In this document: positions 18,004 to 25,073 of the stretch, in pieces | How the letters are laid out: each line of letters opens with the position of its first letter | How positions within the stretch are numbered: position 1 is the first letter of the stretch | Notes under the pieces: generated by a model | Told to the model about the DNA's origin: nothing | The model's database searches: none | Seen by the model: the letters and a program-made list of their open reading frames with translations, nothing else | Program-made: the position numbers and the translations under genes | NCBI GenBank assembly: GCA_019695115.1 | Contig: JAIBAP010000065.1 | Coordinates: forward strand, 1-32,565 | From: Caldilineales bacterium | GTDB taxonomy: Bacteria; Chloroflexota; Anaerolineae; J102 | Length of the DNA stretch: 32,565 nucleotides | Reading direction: 5' to 3'

Positions 18004-20850
18004 TCAGGCCGTCCATTTGCGCAGATCATACCAGTCCCGCCCGATCTCTGGCTCGGCCTTGAGCGGGGCCAAGAGGTCGTAGGCCGATTCCATCGTCTCT
18101 ACCACCAGCGGCGCCAGGGCCGGGAGTTCGGCTTCGGGCGCTTGCAGCACGATTTCGTCGTGGACTTGCAGCGTCATGCGGGCCTGAAAGCCGCCTTCGC
18201 GCAGGCGACGGTGGAGGCGGATGAGGGCGATCTTGAGGATGTCGGCCGCCGAACCCTGGATGGGGTGGTTGACGGCGGCCCGTTCGGCCGCGGCGCGGGC
18301 CTGTTGTGCGGCCGAGGCGGGCGAGCCGCCGCCGCTGATTTGCAGGATGGGGAAGTAGCGCCGCCGGCCGAGCAGCGTTTCGACATAGCCCTGCCGTTTG
18401 GCCTGGGCGATGGTCTCGTCCAGATAGCGGCGCACACCGGGGTAGGTGTCGAAGTAAGTCTTCATGAACTGCCGGGCTTCGTCCATGCTCAGGGTGGTGC
18501 GGTTGGCGAGGCCAAAGGCGCTGACGCCGTAGCTGGTGGCGAAGTTCATCATCTTGGCCACGGCCCGTTGCTCGGGCGTGACCTGGGCGATGTCTACGCC
18601 GTAGACCTGGCTGGCGGTGGCGGCGTGGATGTCCAGCCCGTGGGCGAAGTTGTCGAGCATGGTCGGGTCGCGCGAGATGTGGGCCAGGATGCGCAGCTCG
18701 ACCTGCGAATAGTCCACGGCCAGCAAATAGTGGCCGGGTGGGGCGACGAAGGCCTTGCGGATCTTCCGGCCCAATTCGCTGCGGACGGGGATGTTCTGCA
18801 GGTTGGGGTTGTTGGAGGAGATGCGGCCGGTCTCGGCCCCGGCCTGGTCGAACGAGGTGTGGAGGCGACCGTCGATCGGGTTGATGAGCTGCGGCAGGGC
18901 ATCGACATAGGTGCCCAGGAGCTTGGTTAGCTGGCGGTGCTCCAGCAGCCGCTCGATGACAGGGTGCCGCCCGCGCAGCCCTTCCAACACCTCGGCGGCG
19001 GTGGAGTAGTGGCCGCTGGCCGTCTTCTGCAGGCCGGCGGTGGGCAGGCCCAATTTGCCGAACAGGGCCTCGGACAGCTGCTGGGTGGAGTTGAGATTGA
19101 ACTGGTAGCCGGCATCGGCGAAGATCTCAGTGGCCAGCTCGCTCAGCCGGGCCTGTAGCTCCACGCTCATCTGGCGGAGGAAGGCCGGGTCGATGAGTAC
19201 GCCCGCCATCTCCATGTCGGCCAGCACCGGGATGAGGGGGACTTCCAGGTTCCAGAAGAGTTCGTCCAGTCCCCTCGCCTTCAGTTCGGGCAGGATCAGG
19301 TCGGCCAGCCGCCAGGTCATATCGACATCGGCGGCGGCATAGGCGGCGGCCACGGCGATCGGAACCAGGTCCATGGTGATCTGTTTGCGGCCCTTGCCGA
19401 TCAGCGCCTCGATGGGCGTCATCTCTACCCCCAGCCGCTTGAAGGCCAGGTCTTTCAGCCCCAGGTTGTGGCCGGCGGGGTCGAGCAGGAACTGGCCGAT
19501 CATGGTGTCGATCAGCGGCCCGGCCACCGGCAGGCCGTGGCGACGGCAGACGATGAGGTCGTATTTGGCGTTGTGCGCCAGCTTGGGTTTGGCGGCGTCG
19601 GCCAGGTGCGGGCCGATCTGCGCCTGCACCAGGGCCAGGGGCAGTTGCTCGCCTTCCTGGTGGGCCAGGGGGATGTAGACGTTGGTTTCGGGGCCAGGCC
19701 CCCAGCCCAGGGCCAGGCCGACCAGTTCGGCGCGGTGTTCATCGGTGGCGGTCGTCTCCACGTCGAAACAGAAGCGTTCGGCGGCGGCCAGGGCGGCGGC
19801 TACGGCGGCCAGTTGGTCGGGGCTGGTGATGGCGCGGTAGCCGGCGGGGGCGCCGGCGGGCAGGGCGATGGACGCTGGCGCAGGGGCGGCAGGGGGCAGG
19901 TCATCGCCAAAGAGACCGAGCTGGTGGGCGGGAGGGGCCTCGCGGTCGGGAGACCGGGAGGGGACGGCAGGAGACGGGATGGCGGCAGGCTCGGCCTCGG
20001 GCAGGCGCGAGAGCAGCGAGCGGAATTCAAGCTCCTGGAAGATGCTGACCACGCGCTGGCGATCGAAATCGTGGACGCGGCAGGCGTCGAGGTCGAGGTG
20101 GATGCCGGGGACATCGACGATGGTGGCCAGCGAGCGCGAGAGATAGGCCGAGTCGCGGCCTTCGCTCAGGGCGGTGCGGGCGCGCTGGGGCGTCACTTCG
20201 TCCAGATGGGTGTAGAGGGCGTCGAGATCGCCCCAGGTCTGGAGCAGTTGCGCCGCCCCTTTCTCGCCGATGCCGGCCACGCCGGGGATGTTGTCGGATT
20301 TGTCGCCGAGCAGGGCTTTGTAGTCGATGAGTTGGCGCGGGGGCAGGCCATAGCGCTCCACGACCGTCTGCGGTGTGTAGATGATGGTGTCCGAGAACTT
20401 GCGTCCCGAAGTCAGCACCCAGATCTTATCGGTGACGACTTGCAACAGGTCGCGGTCGCCGGTGACGATGAGCGCGGGGACGGCCTGGGCTTCAGATTGG
20501 CGCGCCAGCGTAGCCAGCACGTCATCGGCTTCGTAGCCTTCGGCGGTGAAGACCGGGATGTTGAAGGCAGCAACCAGTTCCTGAATCCGTTCGATCTGGC
20601 TCCGCAACTCATCGGGCATGCGGGCGCGCGTGGCCTTGTAGTCGGCGAAGCTGTCCTCGCGAAAGCTGCGGCCCACATCGAAGGCGACGGCGATGTGGCT
20701 GGGCTGCTGCTCGCGCAGGACGTTGAGCAGCATCGAGGCAAAGCCGTAGACGGCGTTGACCAGCTCGCCCTGGCTGGTGGCCATGTCGGGCGGCAGGGCG
20801 AAGAAGGCGCGGTAGGCCAGCGAATGACCATCGATCAGGATCAGTTTCAT
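18004..20850 (-). CDS. polA: DNA polymerase I
   Basis: This 948-residue protein has all three domains. The 5' nuclease (about 1-290) starts [20 protein letters not shown]. The 3'-5' proofreading exonuclease appears active, with DVE at 363-365, HNAKYD and YAAADVD. The polymerase domain carries DYSQVELR near 713, an O-helix [10 protein letters not shown], and LQVHDEIVL near 896. It replaces RNA primers and fills gaps. The start is taken at the conserved MKLILIDG. An upstream in-frame ATG at 20919 would add 23 residues with no homology. A terminator lies just upstream (20907-20937). I see no clear Shine-Dalgarno. Confidence 0.95.
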
Positions 20851-20964: not shown

Positions 20965-21192
20965 CTACTGCCTGACGACGAGCTTATTGGCGGCGATCAG
21001 GGCCTGGATTTGTGGTAGGTCGAGGACGTCGGGCCGGAAACGCAAGCAGCACTTCCGATCCAGGCGCAGATCGCCCGACGGGAGCCGAAGCAGGACGTGT
21101 TCGTTGGAGATGTTGTCGATCCAGAGGTAAGGGCCGCTCTCCCAATCTTGCTGCGTTCGGCGGGAGAGGCGGCCGAGGAGGGGTAGGCGCAT
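20965..21192 (-). CDS. 75-residue hypothetical protein downstream of the DEAD-box-like gene
   Basis: This small protein begins MRLPLLGRLSRRTQQDWESG. The middle reads LWIDNISNEHVLLRLPSG, and it ends in LIAANKLVVRQ. It is not recognised. It has a strong GAGGAG Shine-Dalgarno 6 nt before ATG at 21192. The gap to the DEAD-box-like gene is 28 nt, so the two are probably cotranscribed, and a terminator follows. The N-terminus is basic and no signal or TM segment is seen. The weak beta-strand pattern could suit an accessory or RNA-binding protein, but that is a guess. Confidence 0.7.
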   Translation of the reverse strand: MRLPLLGRLSRRTQQDWESGPYLWIDNISNEHVLLRLPSGDLRLDRKCCLRFRPDVLDLPQIQALIAANKLVVRQ

Positions 21193-21220
21193 GGGGTCTC
21201 CTCGTTGGCTTCGGGGGCGA

Positions 21221-22912
21221 TCAGGCGCGGCGGAAGGTGACCACACGGCCGCGCAGCCGGGTGCTGGGCACGCGGTTGAGGACGCGGTCGATGAATTCTT
21301 CCTGGACTTCGACGTAGGTAAAGCGGTCGCGGATGTCGATGTTGCCCACGGCCCGGCCGGGGATGTTGGCTTCGTTGGCGATGGCGCCGACGATGTCCTT
21401 GGGCCGCACGCCCACATCGTAACCGGCATCCATGATCAGGCGGACGTAACCTGGCTCGACCTCACGATCCTCGTCGCGCGGTCGTTCCCGCTCCCGTTCG
21501 CGCGGTCGTTCTCGCTCCCGCTCGCGCTCGCCGCCCGACTCGCGATAGCGGGGCGAGGGCGTGGACGGTTGCGTCGTTGCGGCTTGGGCCGGGCGACGGT
21601 CGTTGCTACGCTTGCTGAAGAGGCTTTCGGCCTGCGTGTGCTGGAGCATGCTGACGGCGGCGGCGGCGATCTCCGACCAATCGTGCCCTTCCTCGGCCAG
21701 GTCGCCGAGCAACATCATGTAGATTTCCAGGTTGCTGCGGCCGATGATGTCGCGCAGCGCCTGCTTGAAGGCTTCGGTGCGTTGGGCCACCGTATCGGCG
21801 CGGGTGGGCGGCAGCACGGCCTTGACCCGCATCCCCAGGTAGTTCTCGATCTCGCTCAGAAGGGCACGCTCGCGCGGGGCCAGCAAGGTGAACAGCGAGC
21901 CGTTCTCGACCACCAGGGCGGCGCGACCGGCATAGGTTTCGGCATCGGTGGGGATGTCGTAGCTGATGGCAAAGGGGACTTCGAGCACGAGGTCGGCAGC
22001 CGCAGCCTGGGTGAGCACCAGGAAGCTGGCCGCAGCCGTCGTCTCGTCGCGCCATGTCCGCATCAGGCTCTCGCGTTGGTCGGCTGATGTCAGGCTGTGG
22101 AGGGCGACGGCATGATAGCCGGCCGTGCGCAAGGCCTGGGCCACGACTTCGGCATCGGGGCGCAGGTTGACGAAGACCAGGGCGCGATCGATGTTTTCGC
22201 CATCCAACAAACGCAGCAGGGCCGTGGTTTTGTCGCCATGCAACACGCTCTGGTAGCGGTGTTTGATCACCGGCATGGTGGCCGGGTGGGCCTCGCGCTT
22301 GAGCACAACCGGTTCGAACAGATGCTGGTCGGCGAAGTCCTGCAGGTCGGCGTCGAGCTGGGTGGCAAAGACCGCCGTTTGGCGGCCGCCGGGAGCCTGG
22401 TCGAGCACCGCCTCCACCGTCTCGGTCTGATCGTCCTCCAGCAGTTGGTCGATGCCGTCGATGATCACCACCTGCACCTGTTCCAGCCCGAAGCTCTCGC
22501 GCTCGATATGGGCCTTGATCCGGCCCGGCGTGCCGACAATGGCGACGGTCGTGCGGTCGATGCGGCCCGCCTCGCGGGCGATGGGCTGCTCCTCTGACAC
22601 CGGCACGATGTGGACGTCCTGGTTGGTGTTCAGGTTCTGGAACATGGCCGCCACGCGGGCGGCGTCGTTGCCGGTGGCTGTGAACACCAACACCTGGATG
22701 CCGACGACATCGGGGTTCAGGGTCTGCAGGATAGGAAGGACGAAGGCCGCGGTCTTGCCGCTGCCGGGCGCGCCTTCGACGACCACATCCCGACCGGCCA
22801 AAAGTTGCGGGATGACTTCCCGCTGTAAGCGGCTGGGTTTTTCGAAGCCCAGCAGTTCTAACCCCGCAATCCGTTCGGGGTTCAGTCCGAGTTCAGCAAA
22901 GGTCTGACTCAT
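21221..22912 (-). CDS. DEAD-box-like protein with degenerate core motifs and DbpA-type RNA-binding tail
   Basis: The protein has 563 residues, starting at MSQTFAELGLN (22912). An earlier in-frame ATG at 23002 adds 30 residues that do not look like the family. A Q-motif-like segment is present (GFEKPSRLQ, Gln30). The P-loop GAPGSGKT is at 47-54 and TPGR at 128-131. Motif II is DGID (152-155) instead of DEAD, motif III is FATQ (182-185) in place of SAT, and motif Ia is FTATG. Motif VI is reduced to YAGR (327-330) in place of HRIGRxGR. The second lobe keeps ALVFVNLRPDAE. A linker rich in Arg-Glu (461-484) precedes a domain matching the DbpA RNA-binding fold (488-563, GVRPKDIVGAIANEA). RNA binding is likely, but ATP hydrolysis is doubtful because the catalytic Glu is missing. 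It is the first gene of a two-gene unit with the 75-residue protein. Confidence 0.85.
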   Translation of the reverse strand: MSQTFAELGLNPERIAGLELLGFEKPSRLQREVIPQLLAGRDVVVEGAPGSGKTAAFVLPILQTLNPDVVGIQVLVFTATGNDAARVAAMFQNLNTNQDVHIVPVSEEQPIAREAGRIDRTTVAIVGTPGRIKAHIERESFGLEQVQVVIIDGIDQLLEDDQTETVEAVLDQAPGGRQTAVFATQLDADLQDFADQHLFEPVVLKREAHPATMPVIKHRYQSVLHGDKTTALLRLLDGENIDRALVFVNLRPDAEVVAQALRTAGYHAVALHSLTSADQRESLMRTWRDETTAAASFLVLTQAAAADLVLEVPFAISYDIPTDAETYAGRAALVVENGSLFTLLAPRERALLSEIENYLGMRVKAVLPPTRADTVAQRTEAFKQALRDIIGRSNLEIYMMLLGDLAEEGHDWSEIAAAAVSMLQHTQAESLFSKRSNDRRPAQAATTQPSTPSPRYRESGGERERERERPRERERERPRDEDREVEPGYVRLIMDAGYDVGVRPKDIVGAIANEANIPGRAVGNIDIRDRFTYVEVQEEFIDRVLNRVPSTRLRGRVVTFRRA

Positions 22913-23164: not shown

Positions 23165-23212
23165 GCCGGTTCAAGTCCCTGGCGCCCTGACGCCAAGTTG
23201 AGGAGGAAGCAC

Positions 23213-24115
23213 ATGCAAGACCAAGTCAACACTTTCCTGGAGCATCTCGAAGTCGAGCGCAACCTGTCGTCCAACACCGTAGTCGCCTATCGGAACGATC
23301 TGGGACAATTCCTCAGTTATTTGCAAGCGTTGGACCCGGCCCACTTGCCGCGGGGATGGGGAAACGTCACCCGCGACCACATCATCGGCTATATGCTGGA
23401 CATGCGCGAGCGCGAATACAGCGATAGCACCGTCGCCCGCAAGATCGCCGCCGTCAAAGCCTTCTTCGCCTTCGAGATGGTCGAGGGCATCCTCAGCAAA
23501 GACCCTTCCGCCGCCATCGAGTCGCCCAAGGTCGAGAAACACCTGCCGGCGACGCTGACTCCTGACGAGGTCGAGTTGCTGCTCTCCACCCCCTCTCCCA
23601 CCACCACCACCGGCCTGCGCGACCGCGCCCTGCTCGAACTCATGTATGCCACCGGCTTGCGCGTCAGCGAGGTGGTGGCCCTCGACCTGGCGGACATCGA
23701 CCTCGACGCCGCCACCGTGCGCTGCCTGGGCAAAGGCAAGAAAGAGCGGGTGCTTCCCATCTATGCCCAGGCGCTGGAGGTGATGAAACATTACGTGCGG
23801 GCAGGACGTCCTGATTTCGCCCGCCCCAACGAGACCGAGCAGCCCCTCTTCCTCAACCGCCGCGGTCAGCGTCTGACCCGCCAGGGTCTGTGGCTGATCA
23901 TCAAAGGCTATGTCGAACAAGCCGGCATCCCGGCCGCCGTGACGCCACACACCCTGCGACACTCCTTTGCCACCCACATGCTGCGCGGCGGCGCCGGCCT
24001 GCGCGAAGTCCAGCAAATGATGGGCCATGCCAGCATCTCCACCACCCAGGTCTACACCCAGGTCACGCGCGACCATCTGCGCTCTGCCTATGACGAAGCG
24101 CACCCGCGCGCCTAG
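23213..24115 (+). CDS. xerD: tyrosine site-specific recombinase, XerC/XerD type
   Basis: The start is ATG at 23213 with AGGAGG 6 nt upstream, giving 300 residues, the usual Xer length. An N-terminal SAM-like core-binding domain (FLEHLEVERNLSSNTVVAYRNDL) precedes the catalytic domain. The full catalytic set is visible: Arg150 (TGLRVSE), Lys174 (GKGKKER), His246 and Arg249 (HTLRHSFATHML), His272 (GHASIST) and Tyr281 (QVYTQV). Xer enzymes resolve chromosome dimers at dif. XerC and XerD cannot be told apart from this sequence, so the symbol is tentative. An integrase is less likely because no phage or attachment site is adjacent. Confidence 0.9.
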   Translation: MQDQVNTFLEHLEVERNLSSNTVVAYRNDLGQFLSYLQALDPAHLPRGWGNVTRDHIIGYMLDMREREYSDSTVARKIAAVKAFFAFEMVEGILSKDPSAAIESPKVEKHLPATLTPDEVELLLSTPSPTTTTGLRDRALLELMYATGLRVSEVVALDLADIDLDAATVRCLGKGKKERVLPIYAQALEVMKHYVRAGRPDFARPNETEQPLFLNRRGQRLTRQGLWLIIKGYVEQAGIPAAVTPHTLRHSFATHMLRGGAGLREVQQMMGHASISTTQVYTQVTRDHLRSAYDEAHPRA

Positions 24116-24118
24116 TTC

Positions 24119-24197
24119 GTATTGCGTATTTCGTGTTCCGTATTGCGTAAAACACACCATATTCGCCACGCAACACGCAACACGCAACACGCAATAC
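24119..24197. repeat. opposed heptamer arms forming a dyad between xer and PNP genes
   Basis: Arm A (24119-24153) has five units: GTATTGC, GTATTTC, GTGTTCC, GTATTGC and GTAAAAC. Arm B (24163-24197) has five units, tcgccac, gcaacac three times and gcaatac. On the minus strand these read GTGGCGA, GTGTTGC three times and GTATTGC. The outer four units pair over 28 bp with about 4 mismatches, giving a long hairpin after the xer stop and 18 nt before the PNP start. It may act as terminator or leader structure. Confidence 0.85.
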
Positions 24198-24215
24198 ACA
24201 ACCCATAACCACAAA

Positions 24216-25073
24216 ATGCCAACAAAACAGTTCGATAGCACTGACTATCAAAATATCGCCGACTTCATCGCCCGGCGGACGGCCCACCGCCCGCGGGTGG
24301 CGCTGGTGTTGGGGTCAGGGCTAAGCGGCCTGGCCGAGGCCGTCGCCGCCGCCGACCGCATCCCCTTCGCCGACATCCCCCACTTCCCGCGCTCGTCGGT
24401 GCTTGGGCACCAGGGCCAGGTGGTGATCGGCCGTCTGGAAGAGCGGGATGTCTTCGTCATGCAGGGCCGCGTCCATTTCTACGAAGGCTACTCGCTCGAA
24501 GAAGTCACCCTGCCGATCCGGGTGATGCGCGCCTTCGGCATCGAGGCCGTGATCCTGACCAACGCCGCCGGCGGGCTGAACCCCGGCTTTCGGCCCGGCG
24601 ACATCATGCTGATCGAGGATCAGATCAATCTGGTGGGGATGATCGGGCACAACCCACTGATGGGGCCAAACGATGAGACGGTGGGGCCGCGCTTCCCCGA
24701 CCTCTCGACCCTGTACGACCGCAAACTGCGGCAGCTGGCGCTGCGGGTGGCCGCCGACCTGGGCCTCGAACTACGCCGGGGCGTCTACGCCGGCCTGGCC
24801 GGGCCGGCCTTCGAATCCCCCGCCGAAGTGCGCTTCCTGCGCGCCATCGGCGCCGACGCCACCGGCATGAGCACGACCAACGAGGCCGTCGTCGCCCGAC
24901 ACTGCGGGATGCGGGTGGTGGGCTTGTCAGGCATCTCCAACGCCGCCATCGACGCCGTCGATTCCCCGCGCACCACCACGCACGACGAAGTGCTGGAGGC
25001 CGGCCGGCTGCTGACGCCCCGGCTGATGGCCCTGCTGCGCGGCCTCCTGGCGCGGTGGGATGAGGCCGCCTGA
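24216..25073 (+). CDS. punA: purine nucleoside phosphorylase (PNP/MTAP family)
   Basis: The ATG at 24216 gives 285 residues beginning MPTKQFDSTDYQNIADFIAR, the usual N-terminus, so an earlier in-frame ATG at 24027 inside xer is rejected. The phosphate site VLGSGLSGLA, GRVHFYEGYS, TNAAGGLNPGF and the purine/ribose site GMSTTNEA followed by SGISNAA are all present. The enzyme cleaves inosine or guanosine with phosphate to free base plus ribose 1-phosphate in purine salvage. No Shine-Dalgarno is visible before the start. The leader contains the 3' end of the heptamer dyad. Confidence 0.9.
   Translation: MPTKQFDSTDYQNIADFIARRTAHRPRVALVLGSGLSGLAEAVAAADRIPFADIPHFPRSSVLGHQGQVVIGRLEERDVFVMQGRVHFYEGYSLEEVTLPIRVMRAFGIEAVILTNAAGGLNPGFRPGDIMLIEDQINLVGMIGHNPLMGPNDETVGPRFPDLSTLYDRKLRQLALRVAADLGLELRRGVYAGLAGPAFESPAEVRFLRAIGADATGMSTTNEAVVARHCGMRVVGLSGISNAAIDAVDSPRTTTHDEVLEAGRLLTPRLMALLRGLLARWDEAA

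Follow-up and report, generated by a model that had tools for sequence, protein, structure and literature searches.

A probable DeaD/CsdA-type pseudohelicase with a conserved RNA-binding tail in one family of Anaerolineae

Very few pseudohelicases have been described. Utp25, the pseudohelicase of the yeast SSU processome, has a DEAD-box fold on which the motifs are dispensable or lost, is retained as a non-catalytic protein, and was in 2022 only the second pseudohelicase to be proposed (PMC9539457). In bacteria, PriA of Deinococcus radiodurans is a lineage-wide case of a helicase that has lost its ATPase and kept nucleic-acid binding, but it is a DNA replication restart helicase and not a DEAD-box RNA protein (PMC4504706). 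Our literature search, whose coverage did not extend to most subscription papers, found no bacterial DEAD-box pseudohelicase. Two active groups are also relevant for comparison. DeaD/CsdA of E. coli and CshA have the domain order RecA1, RecA2, dimerization domain, to which CsdA adds an RNA-recognition (RRM) tail, and DbpA, YxiN, and Hera carry a C-terminal DbpA-type RRM. In the latter group, main-chain amides of I436-G437-I439 in YxiN and of V461-G462-V464 in Hera read a guanine (PMC3695512).

The protein studied here is encoded in the window, that is, the whole stretch of 32,565 nucleotides of Caldilineales DNA that was analysed. It shares its domain order with DeaD/CsdA and CshA and its tail with CsdA, while the catalytic motifs of its clade are degenerate. 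With DbpA, YxiN, and Hera it shares the tail and a guanine-pocket loop of the form V-G-x-I; it differs from them in one uridine-contacting residue, in an RRM that is closer to that of CsdA/DeaD, and in a core that appears inactive by sequence. Utp25 is eukaryotic and has its accessory sequence at the N-terminus, whereas the window protein has a C-terminal RRM, and the two are likened by features, not by descent. What characterizes Utp25, vestigial motifs on a retained fold together with a function, was found in the window clade as well, function being indicated here by conservation. To the very few known members of this kind (Utp25, Deinococcus PriA) the clade adds a new orthologous group.

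Domain layout and predicted fold

The gene lies at 22912..21221 on the minus strand, with an ATG at 22912 and a stop codon ending at 21221, and the 563-aa frame agrees with the original prediction, as judged by the ORF and its translation, Pfam, and the orthologues. The protein consists of two RecA lobes, a DeaD dimerization domain, a disordered linker rich in R and E, and a DbpA-type RRM, i.e., a layout of the DeaD/CsdA type. The RecA1 lobe, in which motifs Ia, II, and III are degenerate (22298..22903 (-), aa 4-205), matched Pfam DEAD over residues 28-183 with 95 bits, above the cut-off. Weaker matches, still above cut-off, were obtained for Helicase_C (228-328, 35 bits) in the RecA2 lobe (21818..22276 (-), aa 213-365) and for DeaD_dimer PF25399 (38 bits) in the dimerization domain (21632..21808 (-), aa 369-427). 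The linker (21452..21622 (-), aa 431-487) is followed by the RRM (21230..21442 (-), aa 491-561), which scored 73.3 bits with DbpA PF03880 against a gathering cut-off of 25.6. The claim that the RNA-binding tail is intact was thereby borne out. The domain has a mean identity of 0.89 within the clade. The best NCBIfam model was PRK11634 (DeaD/CsdA), followed by DbpA, and the score with the former, 247 bits, was far below the equivalog cut-off of 989.

A model built with AlphaFold2 on the 20-row orthologue alignment had a mean pLDDT of 78.6, with values mostly of 80-95 in the lobes (about 90 in RecA1), 50-60 in the dimerization domain, and about 75-89 in the RRM; the linker was predicted to be disordered, with pLDDT below 50 over residues 423-481. 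The second lobe was modeled as RecA2. The modeled RecA1 lobe matched RecA1 of DeaD (5gju) with a Z of 32.7 and an rmsd of 1.1 Å over 198 residues. Over both lobes the model matched CshA (5ivl) and DbpA with a large rmsd, as expected from differing lobe arrangements. The model thus indicates an intact helicase fold with vestigial motifs on it. A resembling fold carries no information on activity.

Long antisense ORFs lie opposite the gene at 21191-22087 (+) and 22097-22597 (+), and most relatives have matches to them. They are probably shadow ORFs of a high-GC coding strand.

Helicase motifs across the family

In a protein search of 60 relatives, each of the 19 other genomes of the family proved to have an orthologue of the window protein, at 50-73% identity, which brings the number of family genomes with the gene to 20 of 20. 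Another DbpA-tailed group, about 33% identical, is the canonical DeaD paralogue; it was present in 11 of the 20 family genomes and also in further families within the class. Searches covering 396 class genomes and 400 phylum genomes gave family members 690-980 bits, as against 437 for the next best match. Scanning the contigs of genomes with a single pseudohelicase protein as the query gave no match, and the same scan with the alignment as the query gave 19 loci of the family's sequence type and one fragment. This fragment, L094:4710-5183, lies on a contig of a bin labelled Gammaproteobacteria, and the contig ends inside the pseudohelicase gene. Since the fragment is terminal on its contig and shares 96% identity with a family copy from Chloroflexota, it has probably been misbinned and not horizontally transferred.

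The original prediction called the window protein a pseudo-helicase on the strength of DGID as motif II and FATQ as motif III. Both are present in the translated ORF (DGID, 22448..22459 (-), aa 152-155; ATQ in place of SAT, 22358..22366 (-), aa 183-185, the canonical form with its preceding residue being FSAT). In addition, ATGND stands at the position of PTREL (motif Ia). Motif V (21977..22015 (-), aa 300-312) reads LTQAAAADLVLE as against ATDVAARGLD and has lost ARGxD, and motif VI (21908..21934 (-), aa 327-335) reads YA---GRAAL as against YxHRIGRTGR. The 3-residue deletion that removes HRI and the replacement of the last arginine are found in all 20 orthologues, as is the GR arginine R330. 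The statement that motifs V and VI are missing therefore holds for these losses and fails for R330.

The losses are a property of the whole group. PTREL, SAT, ARGxD, and HRxGRxGR are each absent from every orthologue, and none has a DEAD motif with the catalytic glutamate. The second position of motif II, where 45 canonical relatives have E in at least 95% of cases, is D in ten orthologues, S in six, G in three, and deleted in one; the absence of glutamate is universal, but DGID itself is not conserved. As 19 other genomes share the changes, neither sequencing error nor chance accounts for them. Canonical relatives have 86 core positions with an invariance of at least 95%; of these, the clade has lost 37 and kept 31, and 30 of the lost ones fall within named motifs, most heavily in Ia, V, and VI. 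Motifs were also read outside the group, in five relatives from the 60-relative search, ten in-family paralogues of sufficient length, 20 high-scoring loci of the class, the named DbpA-tailed loci of other phyla, and nine loci elsewhere in the phylum. Apart from small gaps or undetermined residues, every one of these was canonical. Finding DEAD and HRIGRxGR in close homologues had been named as grounds for abandoning the pseudohelicase reading; with none of the 20 family orthologues canonical, the reading stands. That the protein is still an active helicase with relocated catalytic residues is extremely improbable: the fold and some motif residues are kept, but the glutamate, SAT, ARGxD, and the last arginine of motif VI are gone throughout, and motif II has no invariant replacement acid.

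ATP binding is a separate matter. The Walker A GAPGSGKT (22751..22774 (-), aa 47-54) and GTPGR are intact in the window protein, as had been noted, but neither is a family trait. The orthologues have GSGKT (6), GSGKS (1), GSGRT (11), or GSGKA (2), so that GK[T/S] is kept in the window protein and six others and lost in 13 of 20, and TPGR is lost in most. An ATP-dependent switch, in which ATP would be bound without being hydrolysed and its binding would control that of RNA or a partner, could draw on GSGKT, Q30, and R330 of the window protein and on the GSGK[T/S] of seven orthologues. Yet the lysine has become arginine in 11 and the threonine alanine in two, whole genera included, while the rest of the gene is constrained, and the remaining ATP contacts have for the most part disappeared with motifs II, III, and V and a portion of VI. 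We therefore regard such a switch as unlikely, and the suggestion of an ATP sensor, weakened by the 13 losses, is not supported as a function common to the group. The window protein itself, with its own Walker A intact, could still bind ATP. From the known roles of the lost residues, ATP hydrolysis by the group is very unlikely and ATP binding as a conserved trait unlikely. Some contact with nucleotide or RNA may persist, because R330, T301, and Q30 are conserved in all 20 orthologues, D302 in 19, and D155 of motif II in 17.

Constraint and the RNA-binding tail

The frames are open and free of internal stops in all family genomes. Between the window protein and that of its genus mate dN/dS was 0.20, with synonymous sites near saturation. 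As dS between the window and genome G001 was about 1, near saturation, closer pairs were used to assess selection. For the whole protein, dN/dS was 0.05-0.06 in five close orthologue pairs, and one further pair of greater distance gave 0.03; these values do not exceed the 0.06-0.11 of the canonical paralogue in three pairs. A decaying pseudogene, for which the lost catalytic motifs and a long stem branch might speak, is refuted by this conservation, and its probability is next to nil; the argument of the original prediction against decay is upheld by dN/dS values of about 0.05, intact frames, and a near-invariant RRM. The evidence of function for the pseudohelicase is this conservation and purifying selection.

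Within the clade, mean identity is 0.58 in RecA1 and 0.56 in RecA2, as against 0.89 in the RRM. Seven genomes carry both proteins in loci that can be compared. In these, the lobes of the canonical paralogue have identities of 0.78 and 0.83 and its RRM 0.82, whereas the corresponding values for the pseudohelicase are 0.69, 0.64, and 0.91. Constraint has thus shifted to the RRM, which is more conserved than in the paralogue while the lobes are less so. Likewise, the window protein and a canonical relative of the class (L120) are 61% identical in the RRM and 35% in the core, which suggests that the tail stayed nearer to the ancestral state while the motor changed.

By sequence, the nearest solved relative of the RRM is DeaD/CsdA 5b88 (E 2e-6), followed by DbpA and YxiN. 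The equivalents of the guanine-reading residues are V522, G523, and I525 (loop V522-G523-N524-I525) and are at least 90% conserved in the clade, while the position of the uridine contact K427 of YxiN is occupied by N513 in the window protein and is not kept. Since the guanine loop is retained, binding of single-stranded G beside structured RNA is plausible. As for rRNA, 23S hairpin 92 is a possible target, and docking of the pseudohelicase onto rRNA, as first suggested, is likewise possible.

Descent, gene neighbourhood, and proposed role

The 20 orthologues form one clade (SH-aLRT 100) inside the DeaD/CsdA radiation; trees and fold agree on descent from that radiation with two RecA lobes. The stem of the clade is long, with 1.3-1.5 changes per column, and its exact attachment is therefore uncertain. 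The AU test rejected (p 0.006) the possibility that the pseudohelicase arose within the family by duplication of the canonical DeaD paralogue, with the reservations that the stem is long and that the tested group was chosen once the tree had been inspected. Accordingly, the pseudohelicase does not look like a recent in-family duplicate.

Next downstream is a gene for a 75-aa conserved protein of no known family (20965..21192 (-)), found in 18 of the 20 family genomes and adjoining the pseudohelicase gene in the loci compared. It is followed by polA, encoding DNA polymerase I with Pfam DNA_pol_A and both exonuclease domains (18004..20850 (-)). This order was seen in 13 loci and is kept across the family wherever contigs reach. 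It would suit an accessory role in DNA repair or replication tied to DNA polymerase I. However, what is conserved in the protein is its RNA-binding RRM, and in ten genomes of other families the 75-aa gene stands just before polA (nine by direct match, the tenth by profile), with no pseudohelicase match at the polA loci of these ten. As a functional link the neighbourhood is weakened accordingly: the association with polA may be positional only, and a DNA accessory is improbable. The profile of the 75-aa protein matched 75 of 396 class genomes, in several Anaerolineae families. No Pfam family matched the protein, and its best Foldseek match, with an E of 0.4, was not significant; its predicted fold is beta-rich, with a weak, non-significant resemblance to PsaD and GINS subunits. 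On the other side, the divergent upstream genes (23198-24115 (+) and 24027-25073 (+)) encode a tyrosine recombinase (phage integrase family, XerC/D-like) and a PNP/UDP phosphorylase superfamily protein, an arrangement identical in three relatives.

The dimerization domain could also mean that the protein is the non-catalytic partner of an active DEAD-box helicase, which it would target or restrain within hetero-oligomers. Apart from the domain itself, 31 clade-specific invariant residues, many of them at aa 351-424, a canonical DeaD paralogue in 11 of the 20 genomes, and the presence of RhlE-like helicases are in line with such a partnership. Nevertheless, nine of the 20 genomes, near-complete ones included, lack another DbpA-domain DeaD, and where a genome has both proteins, the dimerization domains of pseudohelicase and canonical paralogue share only about 19% identity, which makes co-dimers of the two unlikely. 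Altogether, we consider the partnership quite unlikely.

The explanation that we favour, at a probability of roughly 60%, is that this DeaD/CsdA-type pseudohelicase lost both ATP hydrolysis and the grip of its core on RNA a single time, in the ancestor of one Anaerolineae family, and that purifying selection has since maintained it as a scaffold that binds RNA independently of ATP. To judge from the identity of its dimerization domain, the protein would probably be dimeric, and the resulting pair of RRMs may bind a structured RNA in which a G is single-stranded. A protein-docking surface may be formed by both dead RecA lobes together with the RecA2-dimer junction, as suggested by the clade-specific invariant residues, about half of which lie at aa 351-424. 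By analogy with Utp25 and the DbpA/CsdA family, the target would most likely be rRNA or a ribosome-assembly intermediate.

In the nine genomes mentioned above, among them that of the window (100% complete), no DbpA-domain protein other than the pseudohelicase was detected, though absences from drafts may reflect incomplete recovery; other canonical DEAD-box helicases are still present there. In the other 11, pseudohelicase and canonical DeaD coexist, and their roles could therefore overlap. We tentatively suggest, with the odds somewhat against it, that this is the first RNA pseudohelicase to characterize a whole bacterial lineage: derived from a DeaD-type helicase, it would now act as a dimer, without enzymatic activity, in ribosome assembly or as an RNA chaperone, and would replace a DbpA-domain helicase in part of the family. 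The clade is also a trap for annotation, as a domain search alone would label its members "ATP-dependent RNA helicase". A DEAD-box pseudohelicase fixed across a bacterial family, some of whose genomes also encode active paralogues, would allow the RNA-binding role of such proteins to be told apart from ATP-driven unwinding.
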